From Simplicispira hankyongi (lineage in GTDB: Bacteria > Pseudomonadota > Gammaproteobacteria > Burkholderiales > Burkholderiaceae_C), in contig NZ_QXJC01000003.1 in the NCBI RefSeq assembly GCF_003570885.1, forward strand, positions 744,001-808,000: DNA of 64,000 bases. The letters are read 5' to 3'. Numbering within the stretch: the first letter of the stretch is position 1; each line of letters opens with the position of its first letter. Position numbers and translations under genes: made by a program. This document shows positions 19,075 through 58,531 of this stretch, in pieces. The notes below the pieces were generated by a model. It did no database searches and was not told the DNA's origin. It saw only the letters and a program-made list of their open reading frames with translations.

Positions 19075-19088
19075 TTGAGTACGCTCAA
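19075..19088 (+). promoter_or_regulatory. FNR/DNR-type box upstream of the universal stress protein gene
   Basis: TTGAGTACGCTCAA, a perfect TTGA-N6-TCAA match and nearly a perfect palindrome. CAGACT at 19111-19116 begins exactly 22 bases downstream as a weak -10. It predicts a start near 19123 and a leader of about 160 bases. Confidence 0.6.
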
Positions 19089-19285: not shown

Positions 19286-19711
19286 ATGTTCAAGGTCCTG
19301 ATTGCAGTCGACGGCTCCGAGCACGCCAACCACGCTATCGAGGCCGTGGCGTGGCTGCCGCGCGGACCGGGTGGCCTGGAGGTGGCGCTCGTGAACGTGA
19401 GCAACCCGGTGTACTACGGCGAACTCCCGGCCCTGGCGCAGGAGGAGGTCGAGAGGGCCCGGCGTGAACGGCAGGAGCGGATTCTGGAAGAGGCGGCGCA
19501 GCGGGCACGAGGCCTGGGCCTGATAGTGGGTGGCAAGCACGGCACGAGTGGATCGGTGGCCGAGGAGATCGTGGGGCTGGCGCGTGAGACCAGTGCCGAT
19601 CAGATCGCCATGGGCACGCGCGGCCTGGGAGCGGCGGGCAGCCTCTTCCTCGGCTCGGTGGCCCTGGGCGTGGTGCACCGTTCGCATGTGCCCGTGTTGT
19701 TGGTGAAGTGA
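19286..19711 (+). CDS. universal stress protein, single UspA domain
   Basis: A 141-residue UspA-domain protein: MFKVLIAVDGSEHANHAIEAV at the N-terminus and the ATP-binding loop MGTRGLGAAGSLFLGSVALGVVHRSHVPVLLV at the end, fitting G-2x-G-9x-G-S/T. ATG 19286 follows AAGGAGGATCACC, an ideal ribosome site, so the longer reading from 19250 is rejected. First gene of a plus-strand unit with the flavodoxin-like and solenoid membrane proteins. The FNR-type box upstream points to induction at low oxygen, as for anaerobic Usp proteins of Pseudomonas (known for the family; inferred here). Confidence 0.92.
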   Translation: MFKVLIAVDGSEHANHAIEAVAWLPRGPGGLEVALVNVSNPVYYGELPALAQEEVERARRERQERILEEAAQRARGLGLIVGGKHGTSGSVAEEIVGLARETSADQIAMGTRGLGAAGSLFLGSVALGVVHRSHVPVLLVK

Positions 19712-20287: not shown

Positions 20288-21427
20288 ATGAAAGCCGCTG
20301 TACTGGTTTTTCTCGGCCTGTCGGCATCCGCCGCGTTCTGCCAGCCAGCGGCGGTCAAGCAGAACGTGCAGATGATGGGTCCATCGGTGCGCTCTGAAGC
20401 GGTGGTCGAGGGCGACTTCGCCGCGATGGGCGGGCATGTACTGGTGAGCCTCCCCGTGGCTGGCGACGCCCTGCTCCTGGGTGGCACGGTCGATGTGCAC
20501 GCTCCAGTGGGCGACGACCTGCGCGCCGCCGGAGGCGATGTGGTCGTCGAAAGCTCCATCGGTGGCGACGTGCTGGCCGCAGCCGGCAACCTCAGGCTGA
20601 CCAAGGCCGCGCGAGTGGCGGGTGGCGCCGAGCTCGCGGGTGGCGATGTGCGGGTGGACGGCCGGGTGGAGGGTTCGCTGAACGTGCGCGCCCGGCGGCT
20701 GGTGCTCAACGGACCGGTAGGCGGCAACGTGCAGGCCGCCGTCGAGGAACTCGAACTCGGGCCAGAGGCCCACGTCGGGGGCAGCTTGCGCCATACCGCA
20801 TCCGCCCCCACGCAAGATCCGGCCGCGGTGGTTTCAGGCCCTGTGGAACGTGTCGACTGGCTGTTTGGCGAACGCCAGCGATGGAACGGCAGGCACCCCA
20901 TGCACGAAGGGCGGTGGCCCGCCATGGGTGGGTGGTGGTTGCTGGTGCCGCTGTCCATGGGCCTGCTCGGTGTGCTGACCTTGGCCGGTCTCGTGCTGTT
21001 CGTCTTTTCCCACTTTGCCGATCAGGCGGCGCACCAGATCGAGACCCGACCCTGGCTCGCCTTGGGCGTTGGCGCGGGGTTGCTGGTCGCCCTGCCGATG
21101 CTGGCCCTGCTGCTCCTCTTCACGCTGCTGGGCATCCCGCTGGGCCTGGTGGTCATGGCCTTGTACCCGCCGCTGTTGCTGCTCGGCTGGTTGATTGGTG
21201 CGTTGTTTGCGGCGCGTTGGCTGGCAGCGCGCACCCGGCGAGGCCAAGTCACCGGGCCGGCTGTGTCCTACGGCTGGATGGCCGTGGCCGTGATCGCCTT
21301 GCTCATGGCCGGGATGATTCCCATCGTTGGACCCCTGCTGGCGACCGCCACCATGGCCGTCGGCCTGGGCGCCTGCGTGCTGGAGTGGCGCCGCCGACTG
21401 GCCAGCCGCCCCAGGGACACGCCTTGA
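20288..21427 (+). CDS. membrane-anchored bactofilin-like beta-solenoid protein
   Basis: A 379-residue protein. A Sec-type signal (MKAAVLVFLGLSASAAFC) is followed by short glycine-rich rungs (residues about 35-170, repeating GG-V-V-pattern: VAGDALLLGGTVDVHAPVGD, LRAAGGDVVVES, GGDVLAAAGNLRL, RVDGRVEGSLNV), like a bactofilin solenoid, here presumably periplasmic. The C-terminal half has about five membrane helices (WWLLVPLSMGLLGVLTLAGLVLF and following). The signal plus solenoid plus membrane domain layout is seen in the polymer-forming family but its function is unknown. Third gene in the Usp unit. Confidence 0.75.
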   Translation: MKAAVLVFLGLSASAAFCQPAAVKQNVQMMGPSVRSEAVVEGDFAAMGGHVLVSLPVAGDALLLGGTVDVHAPVGDDLRAAGGDVVVESSIGGDVLAAAGNLRLTKAARVAGGAELAGGDVRVDGRVEGSLNVRARRLVLNGPVGGNVQAAVEELELGPEAHVGGSLRHTASAPTQDPAAVVSGPVERVDWLFGERQRWNGRHPMHEGRWPAMGGWWLLVPLSMGLLGVLTLAGLVLFVFSHFADQAAHQIETRPWLALGVGAGLLVALPMLALLLLFTLLGIPLGLVVMALYPPLLLLGWLIGALFAARWLAARTRRGQVTGPAVSYGWMAVAVIALLMAGMIPIVGPLLATATMAVGLGACVLEWRRRLASRPRDTP

Positions 21428-23473: not shown

Positions 23474-23935
23474 TCAAGTGCGCTCACGCTGCTCGCGCAG
23501 GGATTCCGTCTCGATCACCGCGGCCATCTCGCGCATCTGCTCGGACATCAGGGAGAGCACGTCGTCCATCGTCACCAGCCCGACCAGAACCCCTTGCGGC
23601 TTGACCACCGGCAACCGGCGGATGCCCTTGCGCCGCATGGTCGCGAGCAGGTCCTTGATCGAGTCGTCTTCCAGTGCGCTGATCAATTCATGGCCCATCA
23701 CATCACCCACCGTGAGCTGGGCCGGGTTGAGTTCGTTGGCCACTACCGCCACCACGATGTCGCGATCTGTGAGCAGGCCCACCACCAGCGGCCCTGCTCC
23801 GGTTTCGTCAACAACGACCAGAGAGCCGACATGCCGCTTGCGCATGAGTTGCGCCGCCTTCACCAACGACAGACCGCGTTCGGCGACCACCACGATACGG
23901 TTGCAGATATCTCTTGCCAGCATCTTTTCATGCAT
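23474..23935 (-). CDS. tandem CBS-domain protein
   Basis: A 153-residue protein of two CBS motifs: one from residue 1 (ICNRIVVVAERGLSLVKAAQLMRKRHVGSLVVVDE) and one from about 75 (VGDVMGHELISALEDDSIKDLLATMRRKGIRRLPVVKPQGVLVGLVTMDDVLSLM). CBS pairs bind adenine nucleotides and sense energy charge. No catalytic domain is attached. The start lies 47 bp after the BON gene stop, so both are likely one transcript. Confidence 0.9.
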   Translation of the reverse strand: MHEKMLARDICNRIVVVAERGLSLVKAAQLMRKRHVGSLVVVDETGAGPLVVGLLTDRDIVVAVVANELNPAQLTVGDVMGHELISALEDDSIKDLLATMRRKGIRRLPVVKPQGVLVGLVTMDDVLSLMSEQMREMAAVIETESLREQRERT

Positions 23936-23982
23936 GTCGCTCTCCAGCCAAGTTGCTTGATCAAGGCCGCGCGGATCGGACC

Positions 23983-24636
23983 TCAGGAGTTGACGCGCAA
24001 CTCGTTGTCCACCCGGGTGACGCCGGGCGCCGACCAGGCCGCGCCCTGGGCAGCCTCGCGCTCGGCCCAGGTGTGCACCGAGCCGCGCAGTACGGCCGTC
24101 GAACCGTTGATGCTTACCTCAATGCCCTTGGCCTCGCGCTCGGCCCGGCGGGTCAGCGCGTCCCGGATGCGTTTTTCAATGTTGCCCGGTGTGGTTCGGG
24201 GTTTGAGCACAATGGCGTTGCTGACGCCCACGACCCCGAGCAAGGGTCGCACCAGATTGGCTGCGGTGGCCCGCTGGTATTCCCAGTCGACCTCCCCGCT
24301 GAGTGTGACCCAGCCCTTCTCGACCTTGGCCTTGATGCGTTCGGCCGGTACGGAACTGTGCCAGGCGAGTGCGGTCTCCACCGCATGGGCGATCTCCGTG
24401 TCGCTGCGCTTGCTGCCGCCGTTCAGCTTCACATCGATCTCGATCGCCACGGCGCGCACGCCAGCCACCCTCTGCACCACCTTCTCCACCTCGTACTTCT
24501 CGATGAAGCTATCCAATTGGCCGGACAACGTGACCACTCCGTCCTTGACCGCCACACCCACCTCGGCGGCATTGATCGAAGGGTCCCAGTCGAGTTCGTC
24601 CTCCACGTCCTTCTTGATCTGTATATCGGATTTCAT
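23983..24636 (-). CDS. triple BON-domain protein
   Basis: A 217-residue protein containing three BON domains (residues about 1-68, 76-143 and 148-217), each with the V-x-V-x-x-G-x-V-x-L-x-G core (VAVKDGVVTLSGQLDS, AKVEKGWVTLSGEVDW, VSINGSTAVLRGSVHT). There is no signal peptide, so it is cytoplasmic, unlike OsmY. BON domains bind membranes or ligands; the role is unknown. ATG 24636 is preferred over TTG 24642. Only 26 bp separate this start from an intrinsic terminator upstream, so the gene must be reached by readthrough or antitermination. Confidence 0.88.
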   Translation of the reverse strand: MKSDIQIKKDVEDELDWDPSINAAEVGVAVKDGVVTLSGQLDSFIEKYEVEKVVQRVAGVRAVAIEIDVKLNGGSKRSDTEIAHAVETALAWHSSVPAERIKAKVEKGWVTLSGEVDWEYQRATAANLVRPLLGVVGVSNAIVLKPRTTPGNIEKRIRDALTRRAEREAKGIEVSINGSTAVLRGSVHTWAEREAAQGAAWSAPGVTRVDNELRVNS

Positions 24637-24662
24637 GTTCAACCTTTCTGTTGAGAGGTGTG

Positions 24663-24699
24663 AAAAAAGATGGCCTGCCGTCCTTTCGGAGGGCAGGCC
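24663..24699 (-). terminator. intrinsic terminator just upstream of the BON gene
   Basis: Read on the minus strand: stem GGCCTGCC / GGCAGGCC (24699-24672) with a further inner CC/GG pairing, then ATC and TTTTTT (24668-24663). It sits inside the leader of the BON-CBS unit, 27 bp before the start codon. Confidence 0.7.
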
Positions 24700-24851
24700 A
24701 AGGTGAAGGTCCCCGGCAAGACCCTCTCGGGCTCAACCGGTCTGAGGTTGCCTTCATCCCTTCATGGGGTGATTGACACTCCACGAACATTCCCCTGAGG
24801 GAAATCCTCACTTGGCCTTTGCATTTCGGTTTGACCCGTAGAGGCATCGGC
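24663..24851 (-). ncRNA. predicted low-oxygen-induced leader or small RNA, about 190 nt
   Basis: A perfect box TTGAGCATGCTCAA (24886-24899) is followed on the minus strand by exactly 22 bases and then GATACT (24863-24858), a 4/6 match to TATAAT, predicting a start near 24851. The transcript would end at the intrinsic terminator at 24663. It could be a free small RNA (compare FnrS-type RNAs of enterobacteria) or an attenuating leader for BON-CBS. A 20-codon frame without a ribosome site (ATG at about 24822) is the only internal ORF I see. I recognise no known riboswitch class. Confidence 0.45.
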
Positions 24852-24885
24852 AATTGCAGTATCGGCGGCGCCGGTGGCTGGCCCG

Positions 24886-24899
24886 TTGAGCATGCTCAA
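24886..24899 (-). promoter_or_regulatory. FNR/DNR-type box for the BON leader/small RNA
   Basis: TTGAGCATGCTCAA is a perfect TTGA-N6-TCAA match and a perfect palindrome. GATACT stands at the exact class II distance on the minus strand. Confidence 0.65.
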
Positions 24900-25011
24900 C
24901 GCGGCCTCAGATCATGCAAACGATGGAGAAACACTGCGGATTTCCGTACTGCGGGAAATCCTCGCACGGCGAGCAAGGGGCCACCCCGGAAGGGCTTCGC
25001 GGCGGGCCCCG

Positions 25012-25025
25012 TTGAGCGGAATCAA
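25012..25025. promoter_or_regulatory. second FNR/DNR-type box in the BON upstream region
   Basis: TTGAGCGGAATCAA, a perfect TTGA-N6-TCAA match. No -10-like hexamer stands 22 bases away in either direction, so it may be an upstream auxiliary site or chance. The stretch 24637-25159 (523 bp) around it contains no gene. Confidence 0.4.
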
Positions 25026-25159
25026 TCGATCCCGCTGTCCGCGATGCCAGGAAGCGGGACCGATGTTCGGCGATGCGGTGTTCGCCCTCCGGGCCGAGCC
25101 CTGCAAGCCCTGCTCAAGACGCCTGCCCGCATGGCGGTCCTGTGCCCACTGCTGCTTCG

Positions 25160-27166
25160 TCACACCCCAAAAGGATAGGTGTCGGCCAAGCCCTCGCCCA
25201 CTTTCATCGGCAACGGCGTCACTGCATGGGTTTCGTCGAACCAGATGTACTCGTCGAACTGGCTCGGGAGCACCGCATCGAAATAATGGCTCTGGCGCTC
25301 CGTCTCGGGACGATAGAGGACGCCGATCGCGCGTTCCAGCCGAGGCGCTGCCAAGCCACCGAGCAGGGCTTTGGACAGGGAGGGTTCACGCAACGGCAGC
25401 AAGAAGCACGCGATACCGCTTGCGTGAAACAGGGACTCGTAACTTCCCGGCAGGGCGGGTCGAACGGCCTTCACTTCCATAGGGCCATCCCAGTCGGTGG
25501 CGGCGGCCACGGTGCCTGCGTAGGTTCCGAAGCCCACCAGGCAGGCCGATTTCCCGAATTCCTGGCGACAGAGATGCCCGAGATTGAATTCCTCGCGCAG
25601 CGACATTTCGGTGGCGGCCGAATCGCCAACATGCGAGTTGTGTGCCCACACCACGGCCTTGCTCTGCGCGCCATGGAACGACAGCAGGTGCCGCAAGGTC
25701 GTGAACATGTGGGTATCGCGCAGATTCCAGGCCACGCGCGAACCGTAGTACATGGTGCAGTAGTAGCGCTCCGCCTGACTGACGACCCGCGCGTTTTGCA
25801 GCGCGTCCAGCAGGCGCTCGCCATCCTGGCCGATGTAGAGCGGGCTCTTTTGCTGCAGGTCGACGAGCATTTTCACGACGTCCGGCTCGCAGCTCCTGTA
25901 GCGCCTGGTCAATGCCGCCAGGCCATAGCTGGCGGGATCGGACTCCCAGGGGGTAAGACACCCGTAGCGCTGCCGCGCCACCTGCGCCGTCGGGGGATCG
26001 ACCCGGTCCAGATAGGCCAGCACCGCGTCGATGGAGCTGTACAGGCTGTAGAGGTCCAGCCCGTGGAACGCAGCGGGTTGCTTCGCCTGCGCATTGTGTT
26101 CGCGCAGCCAATCGACAAAGCCCCGCACTTCCTCGTTGCGCCACATCCAGGCGGGAAATCGGGCAACCCCGGACCAGGCCTGGCCGGGCGCCGCACCCGC
26201 GCGCACGGACCGATCGATCCGCGCCGCATCGGGCCAGTCGCCTTCAATGGCGACAAAGGAAAAACCCTTGCGGGCGATCAGCTCGCGCGTGATGCGCTCG
26301 CGCATGCGATAGAACTCGGAGGTGCCATGGGTGGCTTCACCCAGCAGCACGACACGCGCCTCGCCAACGCGCTGCAGCAGCGGCTCCAGATCGGCGGACT
26401 CGACCGAGTCGAACGCTTGGGCCGCTTCGGCCACAAGGCGCGCCAGCGCGGCGTCCGCAACAGCCGCCTCCTTGCCACCTGCCGGCCTGCGCCACATGGC
26501 ACCCGCATGCGGGTGCACGTGCGGCGCTTCCCCCAGCACCGGAGCCGGCCCGATGTCGGCCATGTCCTCGACACGAAACTGGTTGTCCGGCAAGCGCGTC
26601 ACACGCACCAGCTCCGCGACCTCGGGATCGTCCCCCAACGCCATGACAAGTCTCCCGCCCGGCACCAGCTGCTCTCTCAGCACGCGCGGAACGTGGCGGG
26701 CACTGGCGTGCACCACGATGGCATCGAACGGCGCCTCCTCCGGCCATCCCTGGGCCCCGCTGTCGTGGCGTATCTCGACGTTGTGGCAGTCCAGGCGCGC
26801 GAGCGTGGCCGTGGCCGCCAAGGCGGCCGGCCCCTGGGGCTCGACGCTGTAGACGCTCGCGCACAAACGCGACAACAGCGCCGTCACATACCCCACGCCA
26901 GTGCCGATCTCCAGCACCCTGTCCCGCGCCTGGAGGTCCAGTGCGGCCAGCATCACGCCCACCTCGCTCGGACGCGGCAGCAACCGACCATCCGGGATGG
27001 GCAGCGCGACATCGTCAAACCCGAATTCCAGCAATGCCTTGGGCACGAACTCCTCGCGCGGCACCTCGCGCATGGCGTCGAGCACGCGCTCAGCACGCAC
27101 ATTGCGGCCCACCACATACCGCTCCACCATGACAGCCCGGCGCCGAGAAAATTCCGAATGATTCAT
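25160..27166 (-). CDS. fusion of isoaspartyl methyltransferase (PCMT) and erythromycin-esterase-like domain
   Basis: A 668-residue two-domain protein. Residues about 1-215 form a PCMT domain with the SAM loop VLEIGTGVGYVTALLS near 80-95; PCMT repairs isoaspartate in aged proteins. Residues about 255-668 form an erythromycin-esterase-like domain with Glu277 and His280 (GEATHGTSEF) and His509/His512 (WAHNSHVGD), the positions used for catalysis by EreA/EreB-type enzymes. The natural substrate of such stress-associated domains is unknown and macrolide resistance should not be assumed. AGGAGG precedes ATG 27166. The context is a stress island; low-oxygen control is suggested by a box upstream. 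Confidence 0.88.
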   Translation of the reverse strand: MNHSEFSRRRAVMVERYVVGRNVRAERVLDAMREVPREEFVPKALLEFGFDDVALPIPDGRLLPRPSEVGVMLAALDLQARDRVLEIGTGVGYVTALLSRLCASVYSVEPQGPAALAATATLARLDCHNVEIRHDSGAQGWPEEAPFDAIVVHASARHVPRVLREQLVPGGRLVMALGDDPEVAELVRVTRLPDNQFRVEDMADIGPAPVLGEAPHVHPHAGAMWRRPAGGKEAAVADAALARLVAEAAQAFDSVESADLEPLLQRVGEARVVLLGEATHGTSEFYRMRERITRELIARKGFSFVAIEGDWPDAARIDRSVRAGAAPGQAWSGVARFPAWMWRNEEVRGFVDWLREHNAQAKQPAAFHGLDLYSLYSSIDAVLAYLDRVDPPTAQVARQRYGCLTPWESDPASYGLAALTRRYRSCEPDVVKMLVDLQQKSPLYIGQDGERLLDALQNARVVSQAERYYCTMYYGSRVAWNLRDTHMFTTLRHLLSFHGAQSKAVVWAHNSHVGDSAATEMSLREEFNLGHLCRQEFGKSACLVGFGTYAGTVAAATDWDGPMEVKAVRPALPGSYESLFHASGIACFLLPLREPSLSKALLGGLAAPRLERAIGVLYRPETERQSHYFDAVLPSQFDEYIWFDETHAVTPLPMKVGEGLADTYPFGV

Positions 27167-27248
27167 AGGGCTGCCTCCTGGAACGCAACGGCCATCCCAG
27201 CGATGGCAACGCAATGGCCTATGGTCTGCGAGACGCATTCACCAGGCA

Positions 27249-58517: not shown

Positions 58518-58531
58518 TTGATTATGATCAA
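58518..58531. promoter_or_regulatory. NNR/DNR/FNR-type box between norE and norC
   Basis: TTGATTATGATCAA, a perfect match and near-perfect palindrome, centred 70 bp before norC ATG and 125 bp before norE ATG. Possible -10 sequences: TAAGGT/GATAAG on the plus side. Confidence 0.8.

Follow-up and report, generated by a model that had tools for sequence, protein, structure and literature searches.

The segment between a predicted promoter and a predicted terminator at 24663..24851 (minus strand) of the window, a 64,000-nucleotide stretch of Simplicispira hankyongi DNA, belongs, judging from sequence comparison, to a conserved family of structured RNAs that is absent from Rfam 15. The comparison identifies a free-standing RNA gene, and not a leader of the following BON gene, as the conserved unit, since the neighbouring genes differ or are convergent between loci and the terminator stem lies off helix P4. 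This RNA gene is probably switched on at low oxygen. We consider it likely that it is a pseudoknot RNA gene of a low-oxygen regulon, that its product acts in trans, and that the BON-CBS genes are fed by readthrough.

Within the window, the predicted RNA would start at 24851 and finish with the U run at 24663, giving a length of about 187-189 nt. Upstream of the start, inspection of the sequence revealed CGTTGAGCATGCTCAACG, a perfect 18-bp palindrome (24884-24901, minus strand), whose core TTGAGCATGCTCAA (24886..24899, minus strand) is a predicted FNR/CRP-family operator centred at -41.5 of the predicted start. The -10-like hexamer GATACT (24858..24863, minus strand) follows exactly 22 nt past the operator. 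About 190 nt after the hexamer, the arms GGCCTGCC (24699-24692) and GGCAGGCC (24679-24672) of the predicted intrinsic terminator hairpin (24672..24699, minus strand) form an 8-bp G+C stem, with six T behind it (U run 24668-24663). The ATG of the BON-domain protein (23983..24636, minus strand) stands at 24636, 26 bp past the U run, and the next gene encodes a CBS-domain protein according to the domain search (23474..23935, minus strand). A sequence-only reading of this DNA had described the palindromic box, the 22-base spacer with GATACT, the stem with six T and the distance to the BON start; all of them were confirmed to the base when the sequence was re-read. Folding of the 209-nt leader in the window beat all 200 shuffles (z -4.2, 0/200). 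A generic scan of 23500-26500 found no sigma-70 promoter, a result to be expected if the promoter depends on an activator and lacks a -35 element, and the terminator at 24672-24699 was not listed by a generic terminator scan, which is probably explained by a C-C mismatch in its stem. When up to two mismatches were allowed, TTGAGCATGCTCAA-type boxes were found at three places in the 64-kb window. A weaker FNR-like box, TTGATTCCGCTCAA (25012..25025, minus strand), lies 126 bp farther upstream of the RNA promoter box; L076 and L077 likewise carry an extra TTGACACC-type box upstream, at a different distance than the box at 25012-25025.

The family comprises 30 loci, 25 of which were assembled from several searches and five more of which were reached with a core-only covariance model. 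The BON protein is present in 38 of 299 genomes of the window's family (E 1e-40). Among 32 BON loci examined, the core model matched strongly at four, as BON leader in the window and at two loci of G139, a genome of another genus of the same family, and behind BON in L006. Common to the three leaders are the box, the core GGGATGAAGGCAACCTCAGACCGG...GGGGACCTTCACC and the terminator; a 68-nt covariance model built from their cores found nine places in 8 of the 299 genomes. A degenerate pattern scan of an 84,980-species collection gave 19 matches, 18 of them clear members, including Hydrogenophaga aromaticivorans, an Acidovorax delafieldii metagenome-assembled genome (MAG), Variovorax beijingensis with two copies, MAGs named Rubrivivax, Rhodoferax and Leptothrix, and one Oxalobacteraceae bacterium; the remaining match, L085 from Chromobacterium, was dropped as a chance match with no box, no P1 and no terminator. 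One further member lies on a Variovorax boronicumulans megaplasmid. As three of the nine model places are on the same contigs as named records, the distinct loci number 25.

A model of these 25 cores (R3) matched 15 places in 13 of 399 family genomes, with L103, L105, L106, L107 and L109 as new loci, the matches at L107 and L109 being weak (E 6e-4 and 8e-4). The box was not used in this search, and all five new loci have TTG-N8-CAA near the expected spot together with a GGCGGG-type hairpin arm. Half of the family (15/30 loci) comes from genomes of the window's own family, and the titles of the remaining records name Burkholderiales or Betaproteobacteria. The covariance search of relatives that had been suggested for this leader thus found both the box and the hairpin conserved. 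At the BON loci L019 and L008, R3 gave weak matches (≤21 bits). In a 399-genome sample of the order, in which 13 candidates per genome were scored, R3 matched only the window's genome and G139 at E 0.001; the R2 model, an insensitive search with seven candidates scored per genome, gave weak matches. A DNA search of 26 genomes of the genus returned no match besides the window, and the RNA models match just once in the window's genome. The strict family pattern was absent from viral contigs; one plasmid carries a member. Candidates L064 and L066 from the R2 search of the order, and L067-L070 from the search of the genus, were rejected as unrelated terminators or coding sequence.

An FNR-like box precedes all 30 loci and is an exact TTG-N8-CAA before 29 of them. 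Within the assembled set the exact box stands 140-155 nt ahead of the core in 24 of 25 loci, the sole exception being GTG-N8-CAA in L057, and a -10-like hexamer (TANANT- or CACACT-like) was seen by eye 21-23 nt past the box in 25/25. A box centred at -41.5 combined with a -10 element matches the layout of class II FNR promoters, and the RNA gene has, in sequence terms, the operator position and -10 that would be found in an FNR-controlled sRNA gene. The window's genome has 11 HTH_Crp_2 matches, 10 of them above the cut-off, and one of the seven HTH_Crp_2 proteins that were read (L110) contains an N-terminal Cys cluster and an ETVSR helix, which we take to be an FNR-type motif. From the box and the FNR-type protein encoded in the same genome we infer oxygen control of the RNA. 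The half-sites TTGAG/TTGCG deviate from the TTGAT consensus, so the activator could be another CRP/FNR-family protein. At 10 of the 29 BON loci beyond the three leaders, an FNR-like TTGA-N6-TCAA was present within 500 nt upstream, and BON therefore looks like an FNR-regulon gene elsewhere too.

At the other end of the RNA, a terminator-type hairpin was found in all 30 loci. Predicted lengths run from 182 to 199 nt in 29 of the 30 loci, and L093 comes to 186 nt. L083, L084, L090 and L109 have a weak U tail, with 3-4 T in 9. The mean probability of the terminator stem was 0.83-1.0 in 27/30 loci, calculated with a fold program blind to pseudoknots and ligands and with L056, L076 and L082 omitted for script terminators that were out of register. 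The stem is located beyond P4, clear of the conserved core.

Covariation supports three hairpin domains and a pseudoknot in the predicted RNA. In hairpin P2 (24790..24804, minus strand) four of six pairs were changed on both sides, with 86.4% of cells paired, and in hairpin P3 (24762..24786, minus strand) nine of ten. Helix P4 (GG-a-UGAAGG / CCUUCACC), which encloses hairpin P5, constitutes the conserved core (24702..24759, minus strand). The 5' strand of P1, UGAGG (24806..24810, minus strand), pairs with CCUCA (24743..24747, minus strand) in the internal loop of the P4-P5 hairpin; P1 thus crosses P4, which makes the fold a pseudoknot. The fold of the 25 sequences (37 pairs in six helices) had 92.8% of cells paired against 84.6% in shuffled alignments, 23/37 pairs changed on both sides against 13.1, and covariation of 0.342 against 0.191; it lay far above slid versions, and 0/500 shuffles were as good on all five measures, where shuffle counts are not probabilities and are inflated by the relatedness of the sequences. 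With 30 sequences and 24 pairs, 92.2% of cells were paired, 17/24 pairs were double-changed, and again 0/500 shuffles were as good on five measures.

For P1 taken by itself, the 25 sequences gave a weaker signal (covariation reached in 1/500 shuffles, double-changed pairs in 47/500, further pair types in 319/500). In the 30 sequences three of its five pairs were changed on both sides, in seven cells, and covariation was 0.187 against 0.109 in shuffles (0/500, and 0/500 also for double-changed pairs), while further pair types did not rise above shuffles (382/500). UGAGG/CCUCA is replaced by UGGGG/CCCCA in L083, L084, L092 and L109, by CGGGG/CCCCG in L105 and by UGAGA/UCUCA in L057; one P1 pair is broken in each of L087 and L106, and L079 and L080, whose P1 columns were off by one in the aligner, were scored mostly unpaired. 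P4 changes to UGAGAA/UUCUCA in L105 and to CGGAG/CUCCG in L106. Across P1, P2, P4 and P5, G-U cells outnumbered A-C cells by 62 to 16, an excess that fits the minus strand as the RNA. Conservation is strongest in P1, P4 and the junction nucleotides CA, GA and GG, and P5 is GNRA-capped in about 10 of 25 members, as judged by eye. Over the 30 loci the 5' domain is just 51% identical, and a search for a conserved antisense seed found unpaired runs of at most 2 nt at 80% identity, apart from GGUG, which belongs to P3 and had been left unmarked as paired by the script.

The genes around the RNA were surveyed at the 25 loci using tblastn and GC3-filtered open reading frames. At 15/25 loci the nearest recognised gene shares the strand of the RNA and belongs to one of eight families: BON (five loci), phosphoribosyltransferase (L075, L079, L080, L091), CBS (L056), Hsp20 (L082), DNA polymerase X/PHP (L055), P-type ATPase (L083), nitroreductase (L087) and DUF2784 (L090). 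L084, L089 and L094 have a convergent nearest gene, and L078 and L086 probably do as well, with Pfam scores below the cut-off. The assignment covers 20 of the 25 loci, all but L057, L081, L088, L092 and L093; by eye L092 and L093 are convergent to USP ends, which the tools did not confirm, and they were not included in the convergent count. In the annotated plasmid member the RNA occupies an unannotated gap ahead of a convergent gene. The RNA gene accordingly has its own terminator (with a weak U tail in 4/30 loci) and a placement that is independent of any one gene, as would be the case for an FNR-controlled sRNA.

A same-strand gene starts 16-37 nt past the U run in at least 7 of the 25 loci (the window, G139 twice, L076, L077, L079 and L080), where the RNA may have a cis role in some lineages. 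BON follows the U run at 26-37 nt in one lineage, represented by the window, G139 twice, Hydrogenophaga and Acidovorax, and since this leaves no space for a second promoter, readthrough is probably the source of BON mRNA in the window's lineage. In the Rubrivivax and Leptothrix MAGs (L079, L080, L091) a phosphoribosyltransferase gene comes after the RNA, beginning 16-20 nt past the tail in L080 and L079; this would be a second lineage in which readthrough is needed. The alternative posed by the sequence-only reading, readthrough into BON-CBS or a free small RNA, is better answered by the free RNA, because the neighbouring gene differs or is convergent at other loci; readthrough into BON is still a sensible expectation for the window's own lineage.

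Many loci lie among stress genes (USP, Hsp20, BON, CBS, host attachment protein, alpha/beta hydrolase), and none of 17 query proteins was matched in L057, L083, L087, L090 and L091. BON occurred in 7 of 12 RNA-bearing genomes and in 31 of 287 other family genomes (p 1.6e-4; 6/11 and p 7e-4 without the window's genome), a statistic that took the window's own protein as query, ignores phylogeny and is inflated by relatedness. The protein at 25160-27238 (minus strand) is a PCMT-type methyltransferase joined to an erythromycin-esterase-like domain, and its homologues are found upstream of the RNA also in L055, L076 and L077.

The comparison of loci establishes, at the level of sequence, the promoter module, the fold, the terminator hairpin and the independence from neighbouring genes; activation by FNR, transcription, release, binding of a partner and readthrough are what we infer beyond it. 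At low oxygen an FNR-type protein would bind the box at -41.5 and activate transcription in class II manner. The polymerase would transcribe about 187 nt and halt at the terminator, and the RNA would fold into a compact pseudoknot. Once released, it would act in trans through the conserved pseudoknot core, with a protein or a small ligand as the most likely partner rather than a target of a conserved antisense seed. The low-oxygen mRNA of BON-CBS in the window's lineage would probably come from polymerases reading past the terminator. A more specific version, that of a new class of oxygen-induced structured RNA whose pseudoknot core serves as a receptor in trans for a stress-island protein or for a metabolite and which, wherever its terminator is leaky, also sets expression of the adjacent stress operon, is put forward tentatively, as a possibility with somewhat worse than even prospects.

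The main rivals are an antisense RNA and a cis-acting leader. An antisense sRNA like FnrS or SicX, pairing by a seed to the start regions of mRNAs, would fit the FNR-type promoter, the free-standing placement and the U-tailed terminator present at most loci. The conserved unpaired runs of 2 nt at most (P3 GGUG apart) and the 51% identical 5' domain speak against a single shared seed and in favour of a core that is recognised by its shape; lineage-specific seeds would still be compatible with these data, and we regard antisense action as unlikely. Hence we favour a partner-binding core, and the sequence-only reading's comparison with FnrS found no support as regards mechanism. A leader (attenuator or riboswitch) in which the pseudoknot senses a signal and gates passage through the terminator into BON-CBS or its equivalents appears less probable still. 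The conserved nucleotides do lie in a junction reminiscent of riboswitches, 15/25 loci have their nearest recognised gene on the same strand, and start codons 16-37 nt past the U run imply that readthrough is needed at those loci. But the 15 same-strand genes come from eight different families, and whereas a cis-acting element would always precede a same-strand gene, L084, L089 and L094, and probably L078 and L086, have a convergent neighbour. Moreover, the terminator and the core are separate, and terminator formation is predicted at the 27 of 30 loci scored, so that an expression platform competing with an aptamer was not apparent and the suggested antitermination into BON is unsupported.

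Two further readings have very little left to recommend them. A short encoded peptide would accord with the ATG (GGATGAAGG) of most members and with an open frame crossing the region in the window, but this ATG is GTG in 3/30 loci and neither in 4/30, open frames vary in place and length with no conserved coding frame, and many hairpin indels are not multiples of three; frame loss largely refutes the idea, which is highly improbable. That an FNR promoter for BON and an unrelated hairpin merely coincide in the DNA would agree with the blank generic scans for promoter and terminator at the site, but it is refuted by a conserved family of 30 loci with covariation, and recurrence of the whole module at other loci rules out a chance origin, leaving this the least credible reading of all.

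Among known systems, FnrS of Escherichia coli, an FNR-activated small RNA with an intrinsic terminator, resembles the window RNA in the FNR-type box and the terminator, both predicted here, but is shorter and antisense. AniS of Neisseria meningitidis, an FNR-controlled sRNA in a betaproteobacterium, is similar in control and host, compared by description. To our knowledge, the familiar FNR-controlled sRNAs all act via antisense pairing, whereas the window RNA has a covarying pseudoknot core, as in receptors or protein-binding RNAs. The nearest functional parallel, in the excerpts of its description, is SicX, an Anr-controlled sRNA of Pseudomonas aeruginosa that activates ubiUVT translation by seed base pairing (PMC10247376); it too is a low-oxygen sRNA gene under an FNR-family activator (predicted in our case), but it uses a seed, while the window RNA is, compared by description, a pseudoknot without a conserved one. 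In Rfam 15 no family reached the gathering cut-off for the window RNA or for eight further loci. A weak Bp2_287 match in L056 was rejected, as it begins at the terminator and extends downstream; other weaker matches looked like chance or sat at the terminator, and a tRNA in L060 is unrelated. No description of the family was found in the titles and abstract openings of the literature, and the RNA gene looks undescribed so far; Burkholderiales-1, a candidate RNA motif of the same order listed without Rfam accession in the part of the source seen (PMC2864571), is set beside it by name alone. The low-oxygen-activated locus of Burkholderia cenocepacia, in which, according to abstracts, USP and other stress genes are induced at low oxygen, is a stress-gene cluster like that around the window RNA, and no RNA of this kind was found reported for it in abstract openings or in the term matches in PMC5688073, which led only to a reference. 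If the proposal holds, a transcript of about 187 nt should appear in a Hydrogenophaga or Variovorax isolate kept at low oxygen; the RNA gene would also be a starting point for understanding the joint control of USP, Hsp20, BON and CBS genes in stress islands under oxygen depletion.

Other parts of the window carry related elements. A near-identical FNR-like box, TTGAGTACGCTCAA (19075-19088, plus strand), with CAGACT 22 nt later, lies about 200 bp ahead of a universal stress protein gene (19286-19711, plus strand); this promoter has the same design as that of the RNA and leaves a 5' UTR of about 160 nt. At 20288-21427 (plus strand), a stress-cluster protein contains a Bactofilin-like domain. 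A perfect FNR consensus, TTGATTATGATCAA (58518-58531), is situated between a COX3-family gene and a cytochrome c / COX1-family pair, likely an oxidase or NO reductase cluster controlled by an FNR-family protein.
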